Shown piece after piece: positions 1,904 through 46,379 of a stretch of DNA of 46,379 nt. The notes beneath the pieces are model-generated. The model did no database searches. It was not told the DNA's origin and was given only the letters and a program-made list of their open reading frames with translations. Every line of letters starts with the position of its first letter. Position 1 is the first letter of the stretch. A program made the translations under genes and the position numbers. This stretch comes from a virus: positions 1 to 46,379 of the IMG/VR virus record IMGVR_UViG_3300027976_000063; one strand, 5' to 3'.

Positions 1904-3079
1904 ATGTCAGAAGAAATAAAGGGTATAAGAAAAAATATTCCATTAGAGATTAAACTAACTGAAAAGGAAACACTTGACCTAACAGCAAGATTAACAAATT
2001 TTTATGAAGGTGTTGATACTATTCAAGATTACTTTCTTGAAAGGAAAAAAGAAAAGGTAATTAACATTAATGCTGATGATTACATAGATGAATTCTTCAT
2101 GGATTACACTATTGAACCTAAGGATATGGACATATCAGTAGAGGTTATTGATGGTAAAACATTTTCACCATCAGTACAGTTGGTTACATCATTACCATTG
2201 GAATCACAAATCGGTAGACAAATCACATTAGGTGTTAGGGAAAACAATACAAACAAATGGATTGGGTTTATTAGATTAGCATCACCCGTATTAATGATTA
2301 AACCAAGGAATGAAGTATTTGGTGGTGTTGTAAGAGCAACACAAGTTAATAGAAGTATGTTAAATGGTGCGATTATTGTACCGGTACAACCATTTGGTTA
2401 CAATTATTTAGGTGGTAAGTTATTAGCTTTAATCTCTTCATCACACTATGTAAGGGACCTATGGAAGGAAAAGTACCAAGAGAAGGTTGAACCATGTTAC
2501 ATGGAGACAACATCACTATATGGTGACCTTAAAGGTGTATCACAATACGATGGGCTAAAACCATTTATTAAATATGGGTCAATGACCGAATCTGATATAT
2601 TCCTATTTCCAACGGAGGATATATACATGTCACTTAGAAATTACCTTAGACCAATTTATGGTAAGGAGGAATGGGGTGGTAATTTAGTGGACCCAAAAGG
2701 GTCAGGACCTAAAATGAGAGAATTTAATAAAATGATATCAATCTTAAAAAACCACCTTAAAGTTTATAATAAGGAAATTCTTGATGATTTTAATACTTTC
2801 GCTAAGACTAAAATGAAAGCCAAAACCAAGAAAAGATACTACTATTGTACATATGGTTATGAGAATGTTGTTGAACATGTTATGTCTGAGGGTGAAATCC
2901 CATTAAGAAAAAAAGATAATTACGAACGATACAATCTTGAATCTGTTATTGAATGGTGGAGACCTAAAGCACAACGAAGATATGAAAAATTAGTCGAAAA
3001 CGGTAAGTTAAGACATGACATGGAGATATACACAACGGAATCCATAAATAGTGATGTTAAAATAGATATGGTTAGGTAA
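1904..3079 (+). CDS. DruA/DUF4338-like protein
   Basis: 391 residues. Two segments recall the DUF4338 family, which includes DruA of the Druantia defence system: WIGFIRLASPVL (119-130), and QPFGYNYLGGKLLAL (162-176), where the NYLGGKLLA block is the most characteristic. The family is of unknown biochemical activity and some members occur in phages outside any defence operon. The N-terminal 100 residues and the basic C-terminal 120 residues (KTKMKAKTKKRYYY, then a region rich in Arg and Trp) suggest nucleic-acid contact. It starts a run of same-strand genes and is followed after 2 bases by a P-loop ATPase. None of the other Druantia genes is nearby, so a defence role is not supported here. Confidence 0.5.
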   Translation: MSEEIKGIRKNIPLEIKLTEKETLDLTARLTNFYEGVDTIQDYFLERKKEKVININADDYIDEFFMDYTIEPKDMDISVEVIDGKTFSPSVQLVTSLPLESQIGRQITLGVRENNTNKWIGFIRLASPVLMIKPRNEVFGGVVRATQVNRSMLNGAIIVPVQPFGYNYLGGKLLALISSSHYVRDLWKEKYQEKVEPCYMETTSLYGDLKGVSQYDGLKPFIKYGSMTESDIFLFPTEDIYMSLRNYLRPIYGKEEWGGNLVDPKGSGPKMREFNKMISILKNHLKVYNKEILDDFNTFAKTKMKAKTKKRYYYCTYGYENVVEHVMSEGEIPLRKKDNYERYNLESVIEWWRPKAQRRYEKLVENGKLRHDMEIYTTESINSDVKIDMVR

Positions 3080-3081
3080 TT

Positions 3082-3675
3082 ATGGGATATCATGAAGTTT
3101 CGGGTAGACAAACTGGTAAAACAACCAGGTTGATTAAGGATATGACAGAGGTGATAATTCAAAACAGTCATAACGTAGATTTCAGTATTGGTTTAATCAC
3201 ACCTAATGGACAGAATACTGAATTAATTTTAGAAAAAGTTAAAACAAATATTCTATCGACCTTAGATAATACACAAGTACACTCATTAATCACACCTATT
3301 CATATTTTAGTGGATAGGTGTGTTACAACAAGCTTTAGGAATGGTTGTAGGTTGATTGATATGTTATATATTGATGAATATGATTTTATTTCTATTCGTG
3401 AGTATGTGTCAGCTGACAGTTCATTAAAACCAACAGGAGACAGATACATTTGTACTACACCTAATGGTTCTAATTTTAGTGGGTTTAGAGGTGATTATAC
3501 AAGTGATATTATTTCATATGATATATCCCAAAAAATGAGATTAGAAAATCACCAAAATCCTGATGTAGAAACATGGGATACATATTGTACTATCCAAGGA
3601 GTTATACCATTTTCTCACCCATTCGAGGTTTACCAAATAATAACAAAAGGTTTAAAAAGACACAGATTTATATGA
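3082..3675 (+). CDS. Small P-loop NTPase
   Basis: 197 residues with a Walker A motif GRQTGKTT (8-15) and a Walker B motif LYIDEYDF (95-102). The block resembles the ATPase half of terminases and of helicase-like phage proteins, but the protein is too short for a full terminase or helicase and lacks later helicase motifs, so the partner or reaction is unknown. It lies 2 bases after the DUF4338-like gene, and its stop codon overlaps the next start (ATGA), so the two are translationally coupled. Confidence 0.65.
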   Translation: MGYHEVSGRQTGKTTRLIKDMTEVIIQNSHNVDFSIGLITPNGQNTELILEKVKTNILSTLDNTQVHSLITPIHILVDRCVTTSFRNGCRLIDMLYIDEYDFISIREYVSADSSLKPTGDRYICTTPNGSNFSGFRGDYTSDIISYDISQKMRLENHQNPDVETWDTYCTIQGVIPFSHPFEVYQIITKGLKRHRFI

Positions 3676-4067
3676 ATGATGAAGAAGTAATAAAAAAATG
3701 GTCATTATTGTTCGGTTTCAATTTTGATTCCGTATCTCATGATTTAATATCAGAAATTTGTTGGGCCATGGAGGGTATGGCGAAATCAATAATAATAAGG
3801 ACTACATCAAATCGGTTGATTGATGTGCTGGTATTCCCAGTCCTTTATAGGTTAATAATGGGTGGTGTTAAGATTTACGATTACATTTATTTATATGATG
3901 AACTCGAAAGTTTTATGAATATAAACAGTGGTAAAATGGTTGAGTTAAACGTAATTGGGGTAGATGCTGAGGCTCAGTTTACGCTTTTGTTCTGTAACAA
4001 TTATATAGAAAATTACAAAAGAACCCCAATAAAACCAATTAAGAATATTAAAAAATGGATGAAATAA
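3672..4067 (+). CDS. Hypothetical protein
   Basis: 131 residues, no recognised family. I chose the start at 3672 because it forms an ATGA overlap with the preceding stop; a longer frame runs back to 3573 inside the previous gene but would overlap it by about 100 bases. It is predicted to be a soluble mixed alpha/beta protein. The next small gene begins inside its last 13 bases. Confidence 0.65.
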   Translation: MNDEEVIKKWSLLFGFNFDSVSHDLISEICWAMEGMAKSIIIRTTSNRLIDVLVFPVLYRLIMGGVKIYDYIYLYDELESFMNINSGKMVELNVIGVDAEAQFTLLFCNNYIENYKRTPIKPIKNIKKWMK

Positions 4068-14902: not shown

Positions 14903-15646
14903 ATGGATAGATTTTGTTTATATATACATAAAAAAAAGATTGATGATACACCATTTTATGTTGGCATCGGTGTTAAAGGTCGACCATATCGAAAAGATGG
15001 TAGGAGTGATTATTGGGTAAAATTTACAAAAAAACACGAGTACCATGTTGTGGTACTTGAAGAAAATTTAAGTTGGTTAGACGCTTGTGATAAAGAAATT
15101 AAACTAATCAACCAAATTGGTAGGGTTAAGTTAGGGAATGGACCACTAATCAATCTAACTTCTGGTGGTGAGGGATTTAATGGGAAACACACTGAAGAAA
15201 CTAAAAAATTAATCGGTGAGAAGGGTATTGGTAGAATACCGTGGAATAAGGGGTTAACAAACGAAACCGATGATAGGATTAAATTGATGTCAGAAAAAAG
15301 TGTTGGTCGAATACCGTGGAATAAGGGGTGTAATGGGTGTCAAGAATATACTGAGGAAAGAAATAAAAAAATTAGTTTAGCTGTAAGTGGGTTCAAACAC
15401 ACCGATGAAACTATAGAAAAAATAAGGTTTAGTGGTGTAGGTAGGTCACATAAACAAGTGACTAAAAATAAAATAAGTGATAAATTAAAAAAACCAGTCC
15501 TACAAATCAAAGATGGTCAAGTAATTAAAGAATGGGGTTCAATACAGGACGCACAAAATGAAACTGGGATTATGAACATATCATACGTTTGTTTGGGTAA
15601 AAGAAATAAAGCTGGTGGGTTTGGTTGGGAATTTAAATTGGTGTAA
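14903..15646 (+). CDS. GIY-YIG endonuclease with NUMOD repeats (free-standing homing type)
   Basis: 247 residues. The N-terminal GIY-YIG domain shows LYI (6-8) and FYVGIG (18-23) with the following Arg (27). Two repeated modules with a GRIPWNKG core (about 109-116 and 133-140) match NUMOD3 DNA-binding repeats, a third weaker copy follows, and the C-terminus PVLQIKDGQVIKEWGSIQDA... matches a NUMOD1 helix-turn-helix. This is the layout of phage Seg-like nucleases that cut a related phage at the homologous site and spread their own gene. It stands between a putative structural gene and a spanin-like pair with almost no spacing. Confidence 0.9.
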   Translation: MDRFCLYIHKKKIDDTPFYVGIGVKGRPYRKDGRSDYWVKFTKKHEYHVVVLEENLSWLDACDKEIKLINQIGRVKLGNGPLINLTSGGEGFNGKHTEETKKLIGEKGIGRIPWNKGLTNETDDRIKLMSEKSVGRIPWNKGCNGCQEYTEERNKKISLAVSGFKHTDETIEKIRFSGVGRSHKQVTKNKISDKLKKPVLQIKDGQVIKEWGSIQDAQNETGIMNISYVCLGKRNKAGGFGWEFKLV

Positions 15647-27896: not shown

Positions 27897-27934
27897 GATT
27901 GACATTACAAATCTATATGAATAAGTTTAATACT

Positions 27935-28888
27935 ATGAATCAATATTATGAAGTTTTAGGTTTAAAAAATAATGCATCTGAGGGTGATATAAAAAAGGCA
28001 TATAGAAAAATGTCAAAAAAATTCCATCCCGACATCAACAAAGACGATGACGCTGTTGAGAAAATGTCAAAAGTGAATGAAGCTTATGAAATTTTGACTG
28101 GTAAAAGAAAAGAACCCGAAAAACAAAGACGTAATCCATTCAATAATAACCCATTTAGTGGGTTTGGTGGATTTGGTAACCAATTCACTAAAAGAAGTGT
28201 CAGACCTATAGAATTAGTTGTTGAGGTTACATTGGAGGAAGTCTTTAGTGGTGTTGATAAGGAAGTTTCATTTAACCAATCAACGTCTTGTGATGATTGT
28301 TCAGGTAAGGGGGGTAAGGAACCTATGGTTTGCCCACATTGTCATGGTAAGGGTTATCTTACTGATTATCTACATAGTTTCATTTGTAATACCTGTAATG
28401 GTGGGGGTAGTGTTTTCACCAAACAATGTGGTGGTTGTCATGGTTCAGGTAATAAAAAATCTATTAAAAATGTAACCATTAACATCCCGAAAGGTATGAC
28501 GGGTGGTAACATTATAATGAGTGGTATCGGTAATCAAGTAAATGGTTCAAACCATGGTGATGTTATTTTTAAGATTGTATTGAAAAAACACCCATTATTT
28601 GAAATCGACGGACTTAACATTACCAAAAGAGAAAAAGTTAATATAATTGACCTAATGTTGGGTACTGAATTAGAAATCATAACACTTGATGGTAAAGTTA
28701 AAATAAAGGTTGATAAATTGTGTCCACCTAATAAAGTTTTTAGATTAATAGCTAAAGGATTAATGGATGGTCGTTCAGGTGTTAGGGGTAATTTGTTCAT
28801 CACAGTTGATGGGGTGATGCCTAATGCACTATCAAATGAACAAGAAGAGATGTTAAGGAATTTAAAATATAACACATCTATGGAGTAA
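27935..28888 (+). CDS. dnaJ: DnaJ co-chaperone (type I)
   Basis: 317 residues from the ATG at 27935 (MNQYYEVLGL); an in-frame ATG at 27917 is also possible. It has a J domain with HPD at 31-33, a Gly/Phe-rich linker (about 68-85), and a zinc-binding region with four CxxCxGxG-type repeats (CDDCSGKG, CPHCHGKG, CNTCNGGG, CGGCHGSG, about 119-172), then the two C-terminal substrate-binding barrels. The dimerisation tail is short. It would stimulate host DnaK, perhaps for folding of virion proteins. Phage genes for complete DnaJ are uncommon. Confidence 0.93.
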   Translation: MNQYYEVLGLKNNASEGDIKKAYRKMSKKFHPDINKDDDAVEKMSKVNEAYEILTGKRKEPEKQRRNPFNNNPFSGFGGFGNQFTKRSVRPIELVVEVTLEEVFSGVDKEVSFNQSTSCDDCSGKGGKEPMVCPHCHGKGYLTDYLHSFICNTCNGGGSVFTKQCGGCHGSGNKKSIKNVTINIPKGMTGGNIIMSGIGNQVNGSNHGDVIFKIVLKKHPLFEIDGLNITKREKVNIIDLMLGTELEIITLDGKVKIKVDKLCPPNKVFRLIAKGLMDGRSGVRGNLFITVDGVMPNALSNEQEEMLRNLKYNTSME

Positions 28889-30044: not shown

Positions 30045-30074
30045 TTGACAATTAGAATACTTTTACTATATTTG
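30045..30074 (+). promoter_or_regulatory. Strong Bacteroidetes-type promoter of tRNA leader 1
   Basis: TTG (30045-30047), a 19-base spacer, and a perfect TATATTTG (30067-30074). The core ACTTTTACTATATTTGTAGTATA is repeated almost exactly at 44629-44650 in front of the second tRNA array. Confidence 0.88.
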
Positions 30075-30101
30075 TAGTATACTTATAAAAAACAAGAAAC
30101 A

Positions 30102-30164
30102 ATGACAATAATTACTAACATAGAGAGAAGAGAAGAAAGAGAGACTTATTCACATCGGATATGA
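30102..30164 (+). CDS. Leader peptide 1 (20 residues, Glu/Arg-rich)
   Basis: A short open frame just downstream of a strong promoter encodes a peptide with the core ERREERE at residues 8-14, using GAG, GAA and AGA codons only, and a further Arg near the end. The two tRNA genes directly behind the attenuator read these codons: tRNA-Glu(UUC) reads GAA and GAG, and tRNA-Arg(UCU) reads AGA. The last codons of the frame contain the antiterminator half ATCGGAT. The layout is that of a leader peptide in transcription attenuation. Translation is inferred, not shown. Confidence 0.75.
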   Translation: MTIITNIERREERETYSHRI

Positions 30165-30201
30165 AGTAATATTGTATTATATAAACTTTAAAAAATCCGA
30201 T
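30154..30201 (+). promoter_or_regulatory. Antiterminator pairing of tRNA leader 1
   Basis: ATCGGAT (30154-30160), located in the last codons of the leader frame, is perfectly complementary to ATCCGAT (30195-30201), which is the 5' arm of the terminator. The two pairings exclude each other. A ribosome stalled on the Glu/Arg codons upstream would leave the first segment free to block the terminator; a ribosome at the stop codon would cover it. Confidence 0.65.
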
Positions 30202-30223
30202 TAGAAATAATCGGATTTTTTTT
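30191..30223 (+). terminator. Intrinsic terminator/attenuator before tRNA-Glu
   Basis: A perfect 13-base-pair stem (30191-30203 with 30208-30220) with a GAAA tetraloop and a T tract, placed 17 bases before the first tRNA and after the leader frame. Confidence 0.9.
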
Positions 30224-30239
30224 GTTCTAAAAATTAAAT

Positions 30240-30312
30240 ATTCCTATGGCCAAATTGGATAAGGCACCACACTTTCAATGTGAAGATTACGGATTCGAAT
30301 TCCGTTGGGAAT
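30240..30312 (+). tRNA. tRNA-Glu (anticodon UUC)
   Basis: Cloverleaf by hand: acceptor ATTCCTA with TGGGAAT (7 pairs, one wobble), D stem GCC/GGC, anticodon loop CTTTCAA, T stem ACGGA/TCCGT with loop TTCGAAT. The top pair of the anticodon stem is C-A. The 3' CCA is not encoded. It reads GAA and GAG and is the first gene behind the attenuator. Confidence 0.85.
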
Positions 30313-30325
30313 ACTAAAAAAACAA

Positions 30326-30397
30326 GCCCCTGTAGCTCAGTGAATAGAGCAACGTTTTTCTAAAGCGTCGGTCACTGGTTTGAATCCAGTCGGGGGT
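30326..30397 (+). tRNA. tRNA-Arg (anticodon UCU)
   Basis: Acceptor GCCCCTG with CGGGGGT, D stem GCTC/GAGC, anticodon stem ACGTT/AGCGT with loop TTTCTAA, T stem CACTGG-like with TTTGAAT loop. The anticodon TCT reads AGA and AGG, which are common codons in this genome and make up the Arg codons in the leader core. CCA is not encoded. Confidence 0.88.
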
Positions 30398-30414
30398 TCT
30401 AAAAATTAAATGAT

Positions 30415-30711
30415 ATGAATGTTAATGATGTAAAGAAAGACTTATATAAGTCAAAAGAAATAGCTAAATTAAGTCGATATGTAGCTGGAAACATTTACTA
30501 CAAAGTTAAAGTAGATGGAAATGTCTACGAATTCCCAATACCAACTGTGGTTGAGAGTGATACAGTTTATGACCAACCACAATATACCTTATCCGATGAT
30601 TTAGGTACAACAACTTTCTACGATGAAATGAAAGGTTCTGAATTGAATAGGTGGATTTCCAAAGCTATTAACAAAGATGAATTCACATTAATAGAATCAA
30701 CTTTAGTTTAA
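30415..30711 (+). CDS. Hypothetical protein
   Basis: 98 residues, mixed alpha/beta (GNIYYKVKVDGNVYEFPIPTV, then a helix), no recognised family. It starts 17 bases after the tRNA-Arg, so it may be transcribed with the tRNAs and come under the same attenuator. It converges with the minus-strand gene that ends at 30708. Confidence 0.6.
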   Translation: MNVNDVKKDLYKSKEIAKLSRYVAGNIYYKVKVDGNVYEFPIPTVVESDTVYDQPQYTLSDDLGTTTFYDEMKGSELNRWISKAINKDEFTLIESTLV

Positions 30712-35308: not shown

Positions 35309-36946
35309 ATGAGTAAATTTTCAAAATCTTCTAAGAAAACAGTGTCGAGTATTAGAACACACGAAGGAACGTCCGTAACAAATTTTATGGGAGGTACATC
35401 TTATACCTTAAAACCATTAGACACGTTAAGGATTGTAGCTGGGAGTTCAATATTCGGTGAACCATCTTACTACAAAGCATCACACGATAAACCAACCAAT
35501 ATTCAGACTATTATGAAGAATGACGTACTTGGGTTATATTCTGACGATGAAGTTGAAACAACAACAGATGTTTTTACTAAGTGTATTGATGAGGCATTAA
35601 CTGAAAACTTTATGGGGACTTTGGAATTAGCTCGTACTTTAAGACACGAGTATTTCATGAGGATGAACCCAGCTGTAATATTTATTAGAGCAGCAAGACA
35701 CGAAGGAAGGGTTGAATTTAACAAAGAAAACCCTGGTGTTATGAGAAAAATTGGTTCTGAACTTATTATCAGACCTGATGACATCACAAATCAGTTTGAC
35801 TACTACATGTGGTTAAATGTGACCAAAAAGGGTTTACCGTCAATCGTAAAAAGGGTTTGGGCTGACGCGTTAGGTGAGTTCGACGCTTACAGAATGAATA
35901 AGTATAAATCCAAAGGACTTATAGATTTAGTGAGAATTTCTCACGCTAAATCAGATGTCATTACAGAGATGATGACTACGGGTAATGTCACTGTGGAAGA
36001 AAGTTCACGAACATGGGAAAGTTTAAGGTCCGAAGGTAAAACATGGAAAGAGATTTTTGATACAATCAAAATACCTCATATGGCTTTACTAATAAATCTT
36101 AGAGGTATCTTCACAGAGGTTAATGACCTACTATTCACTAAAGATGTGTGTGAAAAATTAAAAGGCGGTGTACTTTACGGTAAACAATTCCCTTTTAGAT
36201 ATTACTCAGCGTTCAAAGCTATTGAAGGTGTTAATCACGAAGGTCTATTGAAAGATGCACTTGAAGAGTGTCTTGATATTTCGGTGAAAAATTTACCTAA
36301 ATTAAAGGGTAAAACAGTTTGTTTATCTGATAACTCTGGTTCGGCTTGGGGTTCTTTTAATTCTGAATATGGTACTGTTACTGTTGCTGATATAGGTAAC
36401 TTGTCTAGTATAATTACCGCGATACAATCTGATGAAGGTGAGGTTGGCGTTTTCGGTGATAAACTAGATTTAAAACCTGTTTCGAAAAGAAATGGTATCT
36501 TATCTCAAATGAAAGAAACCAAAGAACGAGGTAAAAAACAAGGTCCAAGAACTGAAAATGGTATTTGGTTGTTCTTCAAGGAGGCAATCGAAAACAAAGT
36601 TCACTACGACAATATCTTTATATACTCAGACCAACAAGCTGGACACGGTTCGTTGTTTGGGATAAACCGAAGTGACTATAAAGACTATATTTATGGTGGT
36701 ACTAGTTATGGGAACTACATCGATGTTCTTAAATTAGTTGAGAGGTATAGGAAAGATGTTAACCCGAAGGTTAATATGTTTACGATACAAACAGCTGGAT
36801 ATAATAACTCGGTTGTTCCTGAAAATTTATATAGAGGAGCTATATTGTCAGGGTGGACTGGGAAAGAAAGTCAGTTCGCTAAGGTACTAATAGACGCATG
36901 GGATGAAGTGGAAACTAACGTCTCTGTCGTTGAGGTAACTCAGTAA
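35309..36946 (+). CDS. Ro60/TROVE-family RNA-binding protein (Rsr homologue)
   Basis: 545 residues, the normal length of bacterial Ro60 orthologues. An N-terminal TROVE helical-repeat ring (about 15-320) shows the typical LDTLRIVAGSSIFGEPSYY, FTKCIDEAL, RTLRHEYFMRMNPAVIFIRAARHEG and KGLPSIVKRVWADALG segments. The C-terminal vWA domain begins near 332 and has the metal site DNSGS (341-345) in KTVCLSDNSGSAWGSF. Ro60 rings bind the ends of misfolded or structured RNAs and, with a Y RNA, guide exoribonucleases. A structured noncoding locus stands directly upstream, as in bacteria with Ro60 and Y RNA. A phage copy may steer RNA decay or tRNA/rRNA processing during infection; that is inference. Confidence 0.93.
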   Translation: MSKFSKSSKKTVSSIRTHEGTSVTNFMGGTSYTLKPLDTLRIVAGSSIFGEPSYYKASHDKPTNIQTIMKNDVLGLYSDDEVETTTDVFTKCIDEALTENFMGTLELARTLRHEYFMRMNPAVIFIRAARHEGRVEFNKENPGVMRKIGSELIIRPDDITNQFDYYMWLNVTKKGLPSIVKRVWADALGEFDAYRMNKYKSKGLIDLVRISHAKSDVITEMMTTGNVTVEESSRTWESLRSEGKTWKEIFDTIKIPHMALLINLRGIFTEVNDLLFTKDVCEKLKGGVLYGKQFPFRYYSAFKAIEGVNHEGLLKDALEECLDISVKNLPKLKGKTVCLSDNSGSAWGSFNSEYGTVTVADIGNLSSIITAIQSDEGEVGVFGDKLDLKPVSKRNGILSQMKETKERGKKQGPRTENGIWLFFKEAIENKVHYDNIFIYSDQQAGHGSLFGINRSDYKDYIYGGTSYGNYIDVLKLVERYRKDVNPKVNMFTIQTAGYNNSVVPENLYRGAILSGWTGKESQFAKVLIDAWDEVETNVSVVEVTQ

Positions 36947-43535: not shown

Positions 43536-44603
43536 ATGAAAAAAGAAGAGTTTTTAGAAAAATACCTTAACGCCAAATCACCTACGGGGATGGAAACCGA
43601 AGGTCAACAAATTTGGTTGGATTATATAAAGGATTATGTTGATGAAACATTTACCGATGTATATGGAACAGCTGTTGGGGTTGTTAACCCAGGAAAAGAC
43701 TATAAAGTAGTTATTGAGGCTCACGCTGATGAGATTGGGTGGACGGTTAACCACATTGATAGTGATGGATTTATTAGGGTAGTTCGAAATGGTGGTTCAG
43801 ACCATCAAATAGCACCTGGAACGAGTGTTCAAATACTTGGTGAAAATGGTGTAGTTGAAGGTCACTTTGGTTGGTTAGCTATACACGAAAGAAAGAGTTC
43901 AAGTGAATTACAACCAAGTGTTGACAACCTATTTGTCGATGTTGAGGCATCATCAAAAGAAGAAGTTGAGGGTATGGGTATATTTGTAGGTTGTCCTATG
44001 GTATATAATACACAATTCAAAGAAAGAAAAGGAAAATACATATCAAGAGCGTTGGACAACAGAATTGGTGGGTATATGATAGCACAAGTCGCTAAAAAAT
44101 TAAAAGATAAAGGTGATAAATTACCTTACACTCTATACATCGTTAATTCAGTTCAGGAAGAAATTGGTTTATTCGGAGCTAAAATGATAGCTCAAACAAT
44201 TAAACCTAATGTTGCGATTATAACGGATGTATGTCATGATACACATACACCACACATGAACAAACAAACAGCTGGTGATACAAAGTCAGGTCTCGGTCCA
44301 GTTATTTTTAGAGGTGGAGACATCCAACTAAATTTACATAAGAAAGTAATTGGTGTAGCTAAGGAAAAAGAAATTAAATTCCAAAGGGGTACATATAATG
44401 GTAACTCTGGAACAGATACAAACGCTTTTTACACATCTAATGGTGGTGTTGCTTGTCAATTGATATCATTACCATTAAAATACATGCACACTACGGTTGA
44501 GACTGTGGATAAAAAAGATGTTAAAAATGTGATTAAATTGATATATCACACACTATTATCATTGGAAGAAAACGAAGATTTCAAGTATATTAAAAATAAA
44601 TAA
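43536..44603 (+). CDS. M42-family aminopeptidase
   Basis: 355 residues, the normal length for M42/FrvX glutamyl aminopeptidases. Metal and catalytic residues can be seen: His63 and Asp65 in IEAHADEIGW, SRALDNRIGG with the bridging Asp, VQEEIG with the catalytic Glu pair, ITDVCHDTHT, and the late His in YMHTTVE. It releases N-terminal residues from peptides. In a lytic phage it may recycle amino acids from host protein, which would fit the amino-acid sensing leaders next to it; that link is only inference. A phage gene of this type is unusual. Confidence 0.92.
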   Translation: MKKEEFLEKYLNAKSPTGMETEGQQIWLDYIKDYVDETFTDVYGTAVGVVNPGKDYKVVIEAHADEIGWTVNHIDSDGFIRVVRNGGSDHQIAPGTSVQILGENGVVEGHFGWLAIHERKSSSELQPSVDNLFVDVEASSKEEVEGMGIFVGCPMVYNTQFKERKGKYISRALDNRIGGYMIAQVAKKLKDKGDKLPYTLYIVNSVQEEIGLFGAKMIAQTIKPNVAIITDVCHDTHTPHMNKQTAGDTKSGLGPVIFRGGDIQLNLHKKVIGVAKEKEIKFQRGTYNGNSGTDTNAFYTSNGGVACQLISLPLKYMHTTVETVDKKDVKNVIKLIYHTLLSLEENEDFKYIKNK

Positions 44604-44612
44604 AAAAAATAC

Positions 44613-44643
44613 TTGACTTATAAGAGAACTTTTACTATATTTG
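44613..44643 (+). promoter_or_regulatory. Strong Bacteroidetes-type promoter of tRNA leader 2
   Basis: TTG (44613-44615), a 20-base spacer and a perfect TATATTTG (44636-44643). The region ACTTTTACTATATTTGTAG is identical to that of leader 1 at 30059-30077, so the two leaders are related by duplication or strong selection. Confidence 0.88.
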
Positions 44644-44678
44644 TAGTATATTTATAAACAAAGAAAATTAAAAACAAA

Positions 44679-44777
44679 ATGAAAACATTAACAAACATAT
44701 CTTTATTTACCCTGACGCAAGTCTTTATGGTACAGTTACAAACTGTATTCGGGTTTGGTGTGTCTAATGTCTCATGA
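44679..44777 (+). CDS. Leader peptide 2 (32 residues, Leu/Phe/Thr/Gln/Val/Met-rich)
   Basis: A 32-codon frame follows the strong promoter. Residues 9-24 read LFTLTQVFMVQLQTVF and contain only Leu, Phe, Thr, Gln, Val and Met. The tRNAs behind the attenuator are Gln(UUG), CAU (Met or Ile), Thr(UGU), Phe(GAA), Thr(GGU), Val(UAC) and Leu(UAA), so every residue in the stretch is served by an array member (the Met if the CAU tRNA is an elongator tRNA-Met). It could be mistaken for a hydrophobic toxin or signal peptide, but the position before an attenuator and the match in leader 1 favour a sensor peptide. Translation is inferred. Confidence 0.72.
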   Translation: MKTLTNISLFTLTQVFMVQLQTVFGFGVSNVS

Positions 44778-44839
44778 CAATTTAAGATATACAATCAAAC
44801 AAACCCGAATTCAAATTATTGAGTTCGGGTTTTTTTTTG
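44732..44839 (+). promoter_or_regulatory. Attenuator with antiterminator of tRNA leader 2
   Basis: Three mutually related elements are visible: a hairpin ACAGTT/AACTGT (44732-44746) within the leader frame; ATTCGGGTTTG (44747-44757), perfectly complementary over 11 bases to CAAACCCGAAT (44800-44810); and the terminator whose 5' arm is that same segment. Pairing of the first with the second would prevent termination. Ribosome stalling upstream of 44747 would favour antitermination. Confidence 0.7.
44801..44839 (+). terminator. Intrinsic terminator/attenuator before the second tRNA array
   Basis: A 14-base-pair stem with one G-U pair (44801-44814 with 44819-44832), loop ATTA, and a long T run, 24 bases before tRNA-Gln. 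Confidence 0.9.
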
Positions 44840-44862
44840 TTCTTTGATTTATTGGTAATATT

Positions 44863-44944
44863 GTCTCGTGGTGTAATTGGCAACACGTCCCGTTTTGACC
44901 GGGGAGAGAGAGAAATCCGTTGTAGGTTCGAACCCTACCGAGAC
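44863..44944 (+). tRNA. tRNA-Gln (anticodon UUG) with an expanded variable region
   Basis: Acceptor GTCTCGT with CCGAGAC (one mismatch at the base), the GGTGTAATTGGCAACAC D arm typical of tRNA-Gln, anticodon stem TCCCG/CGGGG with loop TTTTGAC, T stem GTAGG/CCTAC with loop TTCGAAC. The variable region is about 17 bases (AGAGAGAGAAATCCGTT), about 12 longer than usual for this class. CCA is not encoded. Confidence 0.8.
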
Positions 44945-44964
44945 AACTTTAAAATAATAGTAAT

Positions 44965-45033
44965 GGCGTAACTTAGTGAAAAAGGATTATCTCTCATAAG
45001 GATGATTAACCGAGTTTGAACCTCGGGTACGCT
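44965..45033 (+). tRNA. tRNA with CAU anticodon (Met or Ile2)
   Basis: Acceptor GGCGTA with TACGCT, anticodon stem TATCT/GGATG with loop CTCATAA, T stem CCGAG/CTCGG with loop TTTGAAC. The D arm is short and not well resolved by eye. CAU serves Met, or Ile AUA codons if the C is modified to lysidine. Confidence 0.7.
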
Positions 45034-45040
45034 ACAATAA

Positions 45041-45111
45041 GGTGAATTAGTATAGTGGTAATTATGTTGGTTTTGTAATCCAATGACGAGAGTTCGATTC
45101 TCTCATTCACC
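45041..45111 (+). tRNA. tRNA-Thr (anticodon UGU)
   Basis: Perfect 7-pair acceptor GGTGAAT with ATTCACC, anticodon loop TTTGTAA with stem TTGGT/TCCAA (one U-U at the loop end), T stem GAGAG/CTCTC with loop TTCGATT. It reads ACA. Confidence 0.85.
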
Positions 45112-45124
45112 TCAAATAAATAAT

Positions 45125-45198
45125 GGGACTATCGTATAGGTGGTTATTGTACACATGTTTGAAACACATGAGGCCTCAGCTCAACTCTGAGTGGTCCC
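45125..45198 (+). tRNA. tRNA-Phe (anticodon GAA)
   Basis: Acceptor GGGACTA with TGGTCCC, anticodon stem CATGT/ACATG (perfect) with loop TTGAAAC, T stem CTCAG/CTGAG with loop CTCAACT. It reads TTC and TTT. Confidence 0.85.
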
Positions 45199-45204
45199 AC
45201 AAAC

Positions 45205-45276
45205 GCTTACGAAGTTCATGCGGTTGAACACTCGGTTGGTATCTGAGAGGAAGTGGGTTCGAATCCCATCGTTAGC
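45205..45276 (+). tRNA. tRNA-Thr (anticodon GGU)
   Basis: Acceptor GCTTACG with CGTTAGC (one mismatch), perfect D stem GTTC/GAAC, anticodon stem CTCGG/CTGAG with loop TTGGTAT, T stem GTGGG/CCCAT with loop TTCGAAT. It reads ACC and ACT and complements the UGU tRNA. Confidence 0.82.
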
Positions 45277-45311
45277 TCTAAATAAATATCGAACTTTTAC
45301 AATACCACACG

Positions 45312-45319
45312 TATTTATA
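45312..45319 (+). promoter_or_regulatory. TATTTATA box before the HNH gene
   Basis: The octamer lies 16 bases before the start codon at 45336. Confidence 0.35.
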
Positions 45320-45335
45320 TGTAAAGGTTAGTATT

Positions 45336-46136
45336 ATGAGAGAACATGAAAAAAATATTATTAAAAAAAACTATAGTAAGTGTGGTCCGTTTATGGTGGC
45401 TAGTATGTTAAAAACACCTGTTAATGAAGTTTATGTATACGCTAATGATAATTTTATTGAATATAACCATAGAGTATATAACGAAAAAGTGTTAAGTTCT
45501 AAAATTAAAGATTATGGAAGTATTAGGGAACTATGTATTGATTTGGGTATTACAATCACTGGAGCATCATATAAAATAATTAAAAATTATATGAATTTAT
45601 ATAATTTAGATATATCACATTTTAATAATGGTATAACGAGGAAAAGGTTAAAAATACCAACAGAGGAAATTTTAGTTAGTGGTAGTACATACGGTACGTC
45701 AACACTAAAAAAAAGATTATATAAGGAAGGGATTAAAGAGAGAATATGTGAGTTGTGTGGTCAAAACGATGAATGGATGGGTAAAAAGATGTCTTTAATA
45801 TTAGACCATATAAACGGCATTAATACCGACAATAGAATTGAGAATCTTAGAATAGTTTGTCCCAACTGTGACACCACTTTAGATACTTTCTCAGGTAAAA
45901 ATAATAAAAGGTTAAAAAAAGAAAATTTTTGTAGTTGTGGTTGTAAAATAAACAATAAAAGTTTAAGGTGTGTTGGTTGTAGTGAAGTATCTAAACGAAA
46001 GGTTGTTAGACCAACATATAACCAACTACTTGAAGAGATAGAAACATTAGGTTATGTTGGTACAGGTAAAAAGTATGGTGTTAGTGATAACTCGATTAGA
46101 AAATGGAAAAAACATTACGAATATAAGGGGGTATAG
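45336..46136 (+). CDS. HNH endonuclease inserted in the tRNA array
   Basis: 266 residues. An N-terminal helix-turn-helix-like region (GPFMVASMLKTPVNEVYVYA) is followed by the HNH domain (about 138-180): CELCGQNDEW, ILDHINGINTDNRIENLRIVCPNC, with the catalytic His in LDHINGI and Cys pairs that bind zinc. A second Cys cluster (CSCGCK...RCVGCSE) lies near 200-220, and the C-terminus LGYVGTGKKYGVSDNSIRKWKK is a helix-turn-helix that probably reads the target site. Its stop codon lies 10 bases inside the tRNA-Val gene. It is likely a homing-type nuclease that uses the tRNA array as a niche. Confidence 0.88.
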   Translation: MREHEKNIIKKNYSKCGPFMVASMLKTPVNEVYVYANDNFIEYNHRVYNEKVLSSKIKDYGSIRELCIDLGITITGASYKIIKNYMNLYNLDISHFNNGITRKRLKIPTEEILVSGSTYGTSTLKKRLYKEGIKERICELCGQNDEWMGKKMSLILDHINGINTDNRIENLRIVCPNCDTTLDTFSGKNNKRLKKENFCSCGCKINNKSLRCVGCSEVSKRKVVRPTYNQLLEEIETLGYVGTGKKYGVSDNSIRKWKKHYEYKGV

Positions 46137-46200
46137 CTCAGTTGGTTTAGAGTGGTTGTCTTACAAACAATAGGCCGGGGGTTCGACTCCCTCTACCCTC
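46127..46200 (+). tRNA. tRNA-Val (anticodon UAC)
   Basis: Acceptor GGGGGTA with TACCCTC (one G-U), D stem GCTC/GAGT, anticodon stem GTTGT/ACAAT with loop CTTACAA, T stem GGGGG/CCCTC with loop TTCGACT. Its first 10 bases are also the last codons of the HNH gene. It reads GTA and probably other GTN codons. Confidence 0.87.
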
Positions 46201-46206
46201 ACAAAC

Positions 46207-46276
46207 GTCCTGTATATGTGGAGTTACGACCACTCAGGATTTTGAGTATGATGGTGGTTCGATTCCATCTGGGGAT
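46207..46276 (+). tRNA. Degenerate tRNA-like element
   Basis: The 3' half is a normal T arm (GGTGG/CCATC, loop TTCGATT) followed by TGGGGAT, which pairs only partly with GTCCTGT at the 5' end. A GTGG/CCAC D-type stem is present, but the anticodon arm does not form a 5-pair stem with a 7-base loop; the best pairing is ACTCA/TGAGT around a 6-base loop. It is either a decayed tRNA, a tRNA with an unusual fold, or a tRNA mimic. Confidence 0.4.
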
Positions 46277-46291
46277 ACAATAATTACACAT

Positions 46292-46374
46292 GGAGGTGTG
46301 GTGAAACTGGTATACACGTTGTTTTTAAGCGGCAATGTCCTTTGTGGCTTGTGGGTTCGACTCCCATCACCTCT
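46292..46374 (+). tRNA. tRNA-Leu (anticodon UAA)
   Basis: Acceptor GGAGGTG with CACCTCT, anticodon stem TTGTT/GGCAA with loop TTTAAGC, a long class II variable arm (TGTCCTTTGTGGCTT), T stem GTGGG/CCCAT with loop TTCGACT. It reads TTA and TTG, the commonest Leu codons in this DNA. The array may continue beyond the window. Confidence 0.85.
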
Positions 46375-46379
46375 ACTTT

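Follow-up and report, generated by a model that had tools for sequence, protein, structure and literature searches.

Transfer RNA arrays of uncultured large phages stand behind leader peptides that list the amino acids they serve: candidate ribosome-mediated attenuators

This study examined the window, meaning the whole 46,379-nucleotide stretch of viral DNA analysed here (IMG/VR record IMGVR_UViG_3300027976_000063, positions 1 to 46,379), with a focus on its two transfer RNA (tRNA) arrays, each of which lies behind a promoter, a short leader open reading frame (ORF) and an intrinsic terminator. As judged from sequence, the tRNA operons of this phage and of its relatives are very probably under ribosome-mediated transcription attenuation that induces them when their own isotypes become scarce. 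This interpretation, put forward for one of the arrays in an earlier sequence-only reading of the window, is supported by the correlation between leader codons and array isotypes, by the covariation of antiterminator and terminator, and by a recurrent helix between leader start and leader end.

Loci for comparison were collected by scanning IMG/VR with promoter patterns only, and leader content had no role in choosing them. The scans yielded approximately 48 contigs of uncultured large phages carrying a promoter, a leader, a terminator and a tRNA array in that order, with at least 13 leader families among these phages; included are a 58-kilobase record of the window's phage (G002) and clearly different phages, with contigs of up to 363 kilobases. 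For 31 leaders, the match was scored as the fraction of leader residues 5-22 found among the isotypes of the downstream tRNAs. A correlation between leader composition and tRNA isotype was the test proposed by the sequence-only reading, and it proved very strong: in genomes with at least two leaders, the match to the leader's own array was 0.67, vs. 0.10 for leaders swapped within the genome (28 and 50 pairs, respectively), a swap that controls for base composition. With one leader per family (13 families, codon boxes kept separate), the presence of a leader's class in its array had an odds ratio of 26 (p 1.9e-27). Additionally, the true leader-array pairing was the best of all permutations in 11 of 11 genomes with two or more leaders, and none of 20,000 family permutations across ten families reached the observed match. 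The match belongs to the ORF frame (0.685, vs. 0.342 and 0.283 when shifted) and drops beyond residue 24 (0.28). A second scan with a looser promoter pattern, evaluated by an automatic rule, added new families such as ..NKQIVKHVIQFCQNWYLR.. before F,I,Q,K,V,Y,C,H,R,W,L,N, whose complete arrays score 0.89-1.00; pooled over all 17 arrays, some of which are cut by the locus end, the match was 0.65 vs. 0.35 for dissimilar arrays. Another 36 looser-promoter matches had no tRNA nearby, 34 of them also without the leader-terminator order and two (L169, L172) being leaders truncated at the edge of the sequence.

Most tRNA clusters in this large-phage group are preceded by a predicted tiny gene spelling out the amino acids that the cluster serves. 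The putative leader is not necessarily a motif of one or two amino acids; most leaders list 3-12, which is the whole menu of the array. Examples include ..NNIHISNRNQWYQPCFI.. before I,N,Y,W,F,P,Q,(H),S,I,R,C in G011/G020, ..ILSVLCLCLLVLVSV.. before C,V,L,L in G009, and ..FDFAIEAAEADF.. before F,E,D,E in G010, the sister array of which begins with Ala in G009. For the window's phage, the G002 record adds the leader MKTNNNIHNINISRNSWITKMTRCV before Asn, Ser, Ser, Ile, Arg(ACG) and the leader MITNKPTYKPSDAKAGTDCGYNHNC.. before Tyr, Pro, Asp, Gly, Ala, Cys, Lys, and the cores of four leaders (window plus G002) jointly contain all 20 amino acids.

The agreement extends to individual codon boxes, with AGA accompanying tRNA-Arg(UCU) and CGN accompanying tRNA-Arg(ACG). 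AGR codons were found in the cores of 5 of 5 leaders with a downstream tRNA-Arg(UCU), vs. 1 of 11 for arrays whose Arg tRNA reads CGN, and the window's own phage splits Arg by codon box, with AGA in leader 1 and CGT in the leader of the Asn array. In two leader families, the Ser codons of the core are exclusively AGY or exclusively TCN, and the only tRNA-Ser in the corresponding arrays is the matching one. Within families, gains and losses of a residue and of its tRNA tend to coincide (odds ratio 6.6, p 0.002), a count that is not fully independent because the leaders are related, which the one-per-family test avoids. For instance, the sole QFMTVL-type leader with Pro codons is that of G007, whose array alone of that type has a tRNA-Pro, and the YDGACK-type array of G003 has neither a tRNA-Pro nor Pro in its leader.

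At the first array of the window (leader 1), every element that the sequence-only reading had placed between 30045 and 30397 was located. The promoter it called strong is TTGACA-16-TATATT, matching 11 of 12 consensus positions, and also fits the Bacteroidota-type pattern TTG...TAnnTTTG, for which the window holds 6 sites vs. 1.9 expected. The short Glu/Arg frame is MTIITNIERREERETYSHRI, with seven Glu and Arg codons as codons 8-14; ATCGGAT lies in its last codons, and the complementary ATCCGAT (30195-30201) lies in the 5' arm of a GAAA-loop terminator with a 14-base-pair stem and a T tract, followed by the expected tRNA-Glu(UUC) and tRNA-Arg(UCU). The fold of this region beats 200 of 200 dinucleotide shuffles (z -4.0), with the terminator contributing much of that, and the predicted antiterminator duplex of leader 1 has a shuffle p of 0.02 and is equalled by none of 24 swapped arms. 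The array has a divergent counterpart in G008, where a leader reading ..HREERERY.. precedes Glu and Arg tRNAs. Directly behind tRNA-Arg stands a 98-residue ORF (30415-30711) that is probably co-transcribed; on visual inspection, G017 encodes a similar protein among its tRNA-Glu/tRNA-Arg genes.

A second array (leader 2; 44862-46376), absent from the sequence-only reading, has its own promoter, leader and terminator. Searching the record with the array 1 promoter region returned a recurrence at 44608-44666 with 85% identity over 59 bases. The core of leader 2, MKTLTNISLFTLTQVFMVQLQTVFGFG..., uses Leu, Phe, Thr, Gln, Val and Met, and its residues L F T L T Q V F M V Q L Q T V F equal the array 2 isotypes exactly, with Met provided only by a weak tRNA-like sequence. 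The two arrays share an identical element order and have unrelated leader sequences. Between tRNA-Thr and tRNA-Val of array 2 lies an HNH-endonuclease-like ORF (45336-46136), possibly a homing gene, and between tRNA-Val and tRNA-Leu a degenerate tRNA-like sequence seen by eye (46206-46281), for which ARAGORN made no call. An element GTTCTTTGA(T/C/A)..ATTGGTAA, similar to the boxA antitermination site of ribosomal RNA operons, occurs between terminator and first tRNA in the window (44839-44847) and in many relatives' arrays; TTCTTTGA was present in 5 of the 31 loci within the short stretch inspected, and most loci of the Phe-Ile-Gln-Lys family show it on visual inspection.

In terms of predicted pairing, the leader layout is the 1-2-3-4 plan of trp-type attenuators: a promoter and short leader ORF, codons matching the supply, an intrinsic terminator (3:4), an exclusive 2:3 pairing and a 1:2 helix were all found. 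The leader end pairs with the terminator 5' arm at a mean of -12.0 kcal/mol for its own arm vs. -7.5 for swapped arms (predicted duplexes), and, taken one by one, roughly half of 25 leaders have a predicted antiterminator duplex better than that of shuffled sequences at p <0.05. The terminator arm varies between phages, with the leader end varying in step. In the ribosome-free fold, the leader start pairs with the leader end, typically as AACATAC with GTATGTT; this predicted 1:2 helix has a mean of -11.7 kcal/mol vs. -6.7 when shuffled, reaches p <0.05 in 18 of 31 leaders, and is retained with different letters in leaders G003_H, G008_ER and G013_E. In 30 of 31 leaders, the region near the start carries ACATA in a frame that varies relative to the ORF, and this motif is therefore taken as an RNA feature. 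When a ribosome was modelled on leader 1, the antiterminator formed at a level of about 0.5 with the ribosome on codons 8-14, precisely the Glu/Arg codons, and was blocked with the ribosome at codons 16-18 (0.0) or at the stop codon (0.07). Masking at the stop is clear in the footprint model for leader 1, G002_N, G003_K, G008_Q and G017_Q.

Under the proposed mechanism, the strong promoter would produce a leader RNA with a short ORF listing the codons read by the downstream tRNAs. With ample supply of the listed aminoacyl-tRNAs, the ribosome would reach the leader end and melt or cover segment 2, the terminator 3:4 would form, and transcription would end before the tRNAs. With any listed tRNA scarce, the ribosome would stall in the control codons and disrupt the 1:2 helix; the freed segment 2 would pair with the terminator 5' arm, the terminator would fail, and the transcribed array would replenish the missing tRNAs, closing the loop. 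We infer that the leaders are translated and, from the RNA geometry, that stalling would raise rather than lower readthrough. The natural trigger would be scarcity arising from infection, with host tRNA-cleaving defences or host shutdown as the best candidates.

Several observations weigh against this mechanism. In the simple model, a ribosome parked at the stop leaves the antiterminator uncovered in leaders G003_H, G013_S, G019_Q and G009_H, so that termination there must rely on a moving ribosome, and masking at the stop codon is likewise not clear for leader 2. The model without a ribosome leaves the antiterminator partly formed (mean 0.58), and the untranslated state is therefore not clearly terminating. 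Some leader residues have no detected matching tRNA, and a few arrays have no visible leader (Glu/Leu/Arg in G016; Glu/Arg in G017). Finally, close coupling between transcription and translation has not, to our knowledge, been firmly established in Bacteroidota.

The codon match might instead reflect chance, with purine-rich or otherwise biased DNA giving codons like those of the tRNAs. For array 1 in isolation, the purine-rich GAGAAGAGA stretch could yield its E/R codons by luck, because GA-rich DNA readily gives Glu and Arg codons and the run favours them in more than one frame. For array 1, chance is removed by the matches of leader 2, from the same window, and of the relatives, with at least 13 leader families matching in frame only; the swap and frame controls refute it, leaving a negligible probability. 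The leader ORFs might also encode functional small proteins (e.g., tRNA-related peptides or toxins), with a terminator that merely insulates the operon. Conservation of the peptide within leader families (e.g., LFVMTLTVLFQFTQT) agrees with such a role, whereas across families the sequences are unrelated and their composition tracks the array, the codon boxes track the tRNA anticodons, and the terminator arm covaries with the leader end; small proteins are thus considered very unlikely.

A further alternative keeps the leader as a regulator and gives it the opposite sign or another output, with stalling lowering tRNA expression or affecting RNA processing or decay rather than termination. The sign is derived from RNA geometry alone and the folding without a ribosome is ambiguous, but the antiterminator follows the control codons and repeats the sequence of the terminator 3' arm, an arrangement shared with trp/his leaders, and stalls at the control codons free it in the leader 1 model, making this alternative unlikely. 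Direct binding of uncharged tRNA by a T-box-like leader RNA would fit a system whose output is tRNA supply and whose signal is tRNA charging, and no tool result favours it: no T-box or other family was found at cut-off, and the match spans many codons in one reading frame rather than a single specifier, so that its probability is close to nil. T-box and known Rfam leaders were rejected, as apart from tRNA no Rfam family was above cut-off, and none at all in leader 1. Trp_leader (RF00513) and Thr_leader (RF00506) resemble these leaders in general layout, and their scores were sub-threshold (18.1 bits vs. a cut-off of 41; 17.3, on the other strand, and 15.0 vs. 55).

Ribosome-mediated attenuation as proposed here shares with the trp, his, thr and ilv leaders a promoter, a short ORF rich in control codons, alternative 1:2/2:3/3:4 pairings and an intrinsic terminator before the genes. 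The phage systems differ in controlling tRNA genes rather than biosynthesis enzymes, in carrying up to 12 amino acids that represent the array's isotype menu, and in being partitioned, with separate leaders watching separate amino acids. T-box riboswitches likewise sense tRNA charging and control termination, but they bind tRNA directly, and the phage leaders have no T-box match. The role of phage tRNA genes has been argued for decades, with codon compensation set against replacement of tRNAs destroyed in the host. Here the phage apparently states when each tRNA is wanted, namely when ribosomes stall for lack of it; such stall-triggered supply favours replacement on demand and makes the question directly testable. 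Leader composition provides a sequence signature for finding such systems. If correct, attenuation would reach beyond metabolic genes, into the translation machinery itself and into viruses, and usable transcription-translation coupling in infected bacteria would be implied. The chances are about even that the leaders act jointly as a genome-wide tRNA-supply sensor, in which any tRNA loss, above all by host anticodon nucleases, would induce the replacing operon; if true, this would be an inducible, self-limiting counter-defence. Known counter-defence phage tRNAs similarly substitute for host tRNAs lost in infection: a T5-type tRNA-Tyr counters retron-Eco7 (PMC11555353), and phage tRNAs resist anticodon nucleases (PMC10264068). 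The features reported in these two papers are a strong phage promoter or anticodon-loop changes, with attenuation and leader peptides unmentioned in both. The novelty claimed by the sequence-only reading held in an open literature of 5.39 million papers, to which most subscription journals do not belong: no description of phage tRNA genes with leader peptides or attenuation was found there, and no codon-matched tRNA attenuator was found in Rfam families, cultured phages or that literature.

Features of the two arrays and their leaders (window coordinates)
Feature	Position	Strand	Basis or remark
Promoter of array 1	30045..30074	+	TTGACA (-33/-35) and TATATTTG (-7), Bacteroidota type; array 2 is preceded by a similar copy
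Leader peptide ORF 1, MTIITNIERREERETYSHRI	30102..30164	+	divergent counterpart in phage G008: MTKATTYIVLTHREERERYLTNSRSGCRI before tRNA-Glu, tRNA-Arg
Segment 1, leader start (contains AACATA)	30105..30122	+	folding: pairs with 30160-30175 in ribosome-free RNA, -9.6 kcal/mol, shuffle p 0.02
Control codons GAG AGA AGA GAA GAA AGA GAG (Glu/Arg)	30123..30143	+	codon-box comparison and ribosome-footprint model
Segment 2 core, antiterminator strand ATCGGAT, copy of terminator 3' arm	30154..30160	+	predicted duplex -9.2 kcal/mol
Intrinsic terminator (segments 3:4), GAAA loop, T tract	30190..30221	+	14-base-pair stem
tRNA-Glu(UUC)	30240..30314	+	tRNA call
tRNA-Arg(UCU)	30326..30399	+	tRNA call
Promoter of array 2, copy of promoter 1	44613..44643	+	sequence similarity to promoter 1
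Leader peptide ORF 2, MKTLTNISLFTLTQVFMVQLQTVFGFGVSNVS	44679..44777	+	homologues in G008, G017, G019, G021 and G007
Control codons S L F T L T Q V F M V Q L Q T	44700..44744	+	first residue excepted, all are array 2 isotypes
Antiterminator strand ATTCGGGTTTG, copy of terminator 3' arm	44747..44757	+	predicted duplex -17.0 kcal/mol; 0/300 shuffles equal
Intrinsic terminator of array 2	44801..44832	+	between leader 2 and tRNA-Gln
tRNA-Gln(UUG)	44862..44947	+	tRNA call
Weak tRNA-like sequence, anticodon CAU by eye (Met or Ile2)	44965..45034	+	cmscan 21.8 bits, under 29-bit cut-off
tRNA-Thr(UGU)	45041..45113	+	tRNA call
tRNA-Phe(GAA)	45125..45200	+	tRNA call
tRNA-Thr(GGU)	45205..45278	+	tRNA call
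tRNA-Val(UAC)	46127..46202	+	tRNA call
tRNA-Leu(UAA), at window end	46292..46376	+	tRNA call; in G002, tRNA-Leu(UAG) comes next

The sheath, baseplate, reductase and DnaB-type helicase of G011, a nearly complete relative, mark it as a T4-like myovirus, and the TTG/TAnnTTTG promoter type of these phages is taken here to suggest Bacteroidota hosts. No close cultured relative was found, the best DNA polymerase match having approximately 25% identity (Salinibacter phages). A blastn search of the array 1 region against named phages returned tRNA matches only, blastn and tblastn with leaders as queries returned no leader-bearing cultured phage, and the Dda helicase as query returned three fragments, none with tRNA genes. 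A promoter scan of a cellular collection of 84,980 genomes gave 27 sites, of which 5 had a tRNA directly behind the promoter and none had a leader before tRNAs.

Other observations were made on these phages. In G002 (L030, reverse complement, approximately 15320-15490), a further terminator precedes tRNA-Lys, with a Lys-rich ORF end (KIKRIKRKNKVEIMVNKLKYKQ) upstream and an additional hairpin; this may be a leader of another kind. L010 (IMGVR_UViG_3300042691_016389) carries a predicted phage-borne transfer-messenger RNA at 3382-3775 with an unusually long tag, ADLYPSQKASAKVIKLTPVAEQELELAA, and the G010 contig has at 108281 a predicted tRNA with anticodon CUA (tRNA-Pyl according to ARAGORN), a possible amber suppressor. 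Within the window, a TROVE/Ro60-like RNA-binding protein (35309-36946) has 51% identity to gp540 of Bacillus phage G, and the gap of approximately 560 bases upstream of its gene gave no confident RNA family. The window additionally encodes a DruA-like protein (1904-3079), a DnaJ homologue (27899-28888) and an M42 aminopeptidase (43536-44603).
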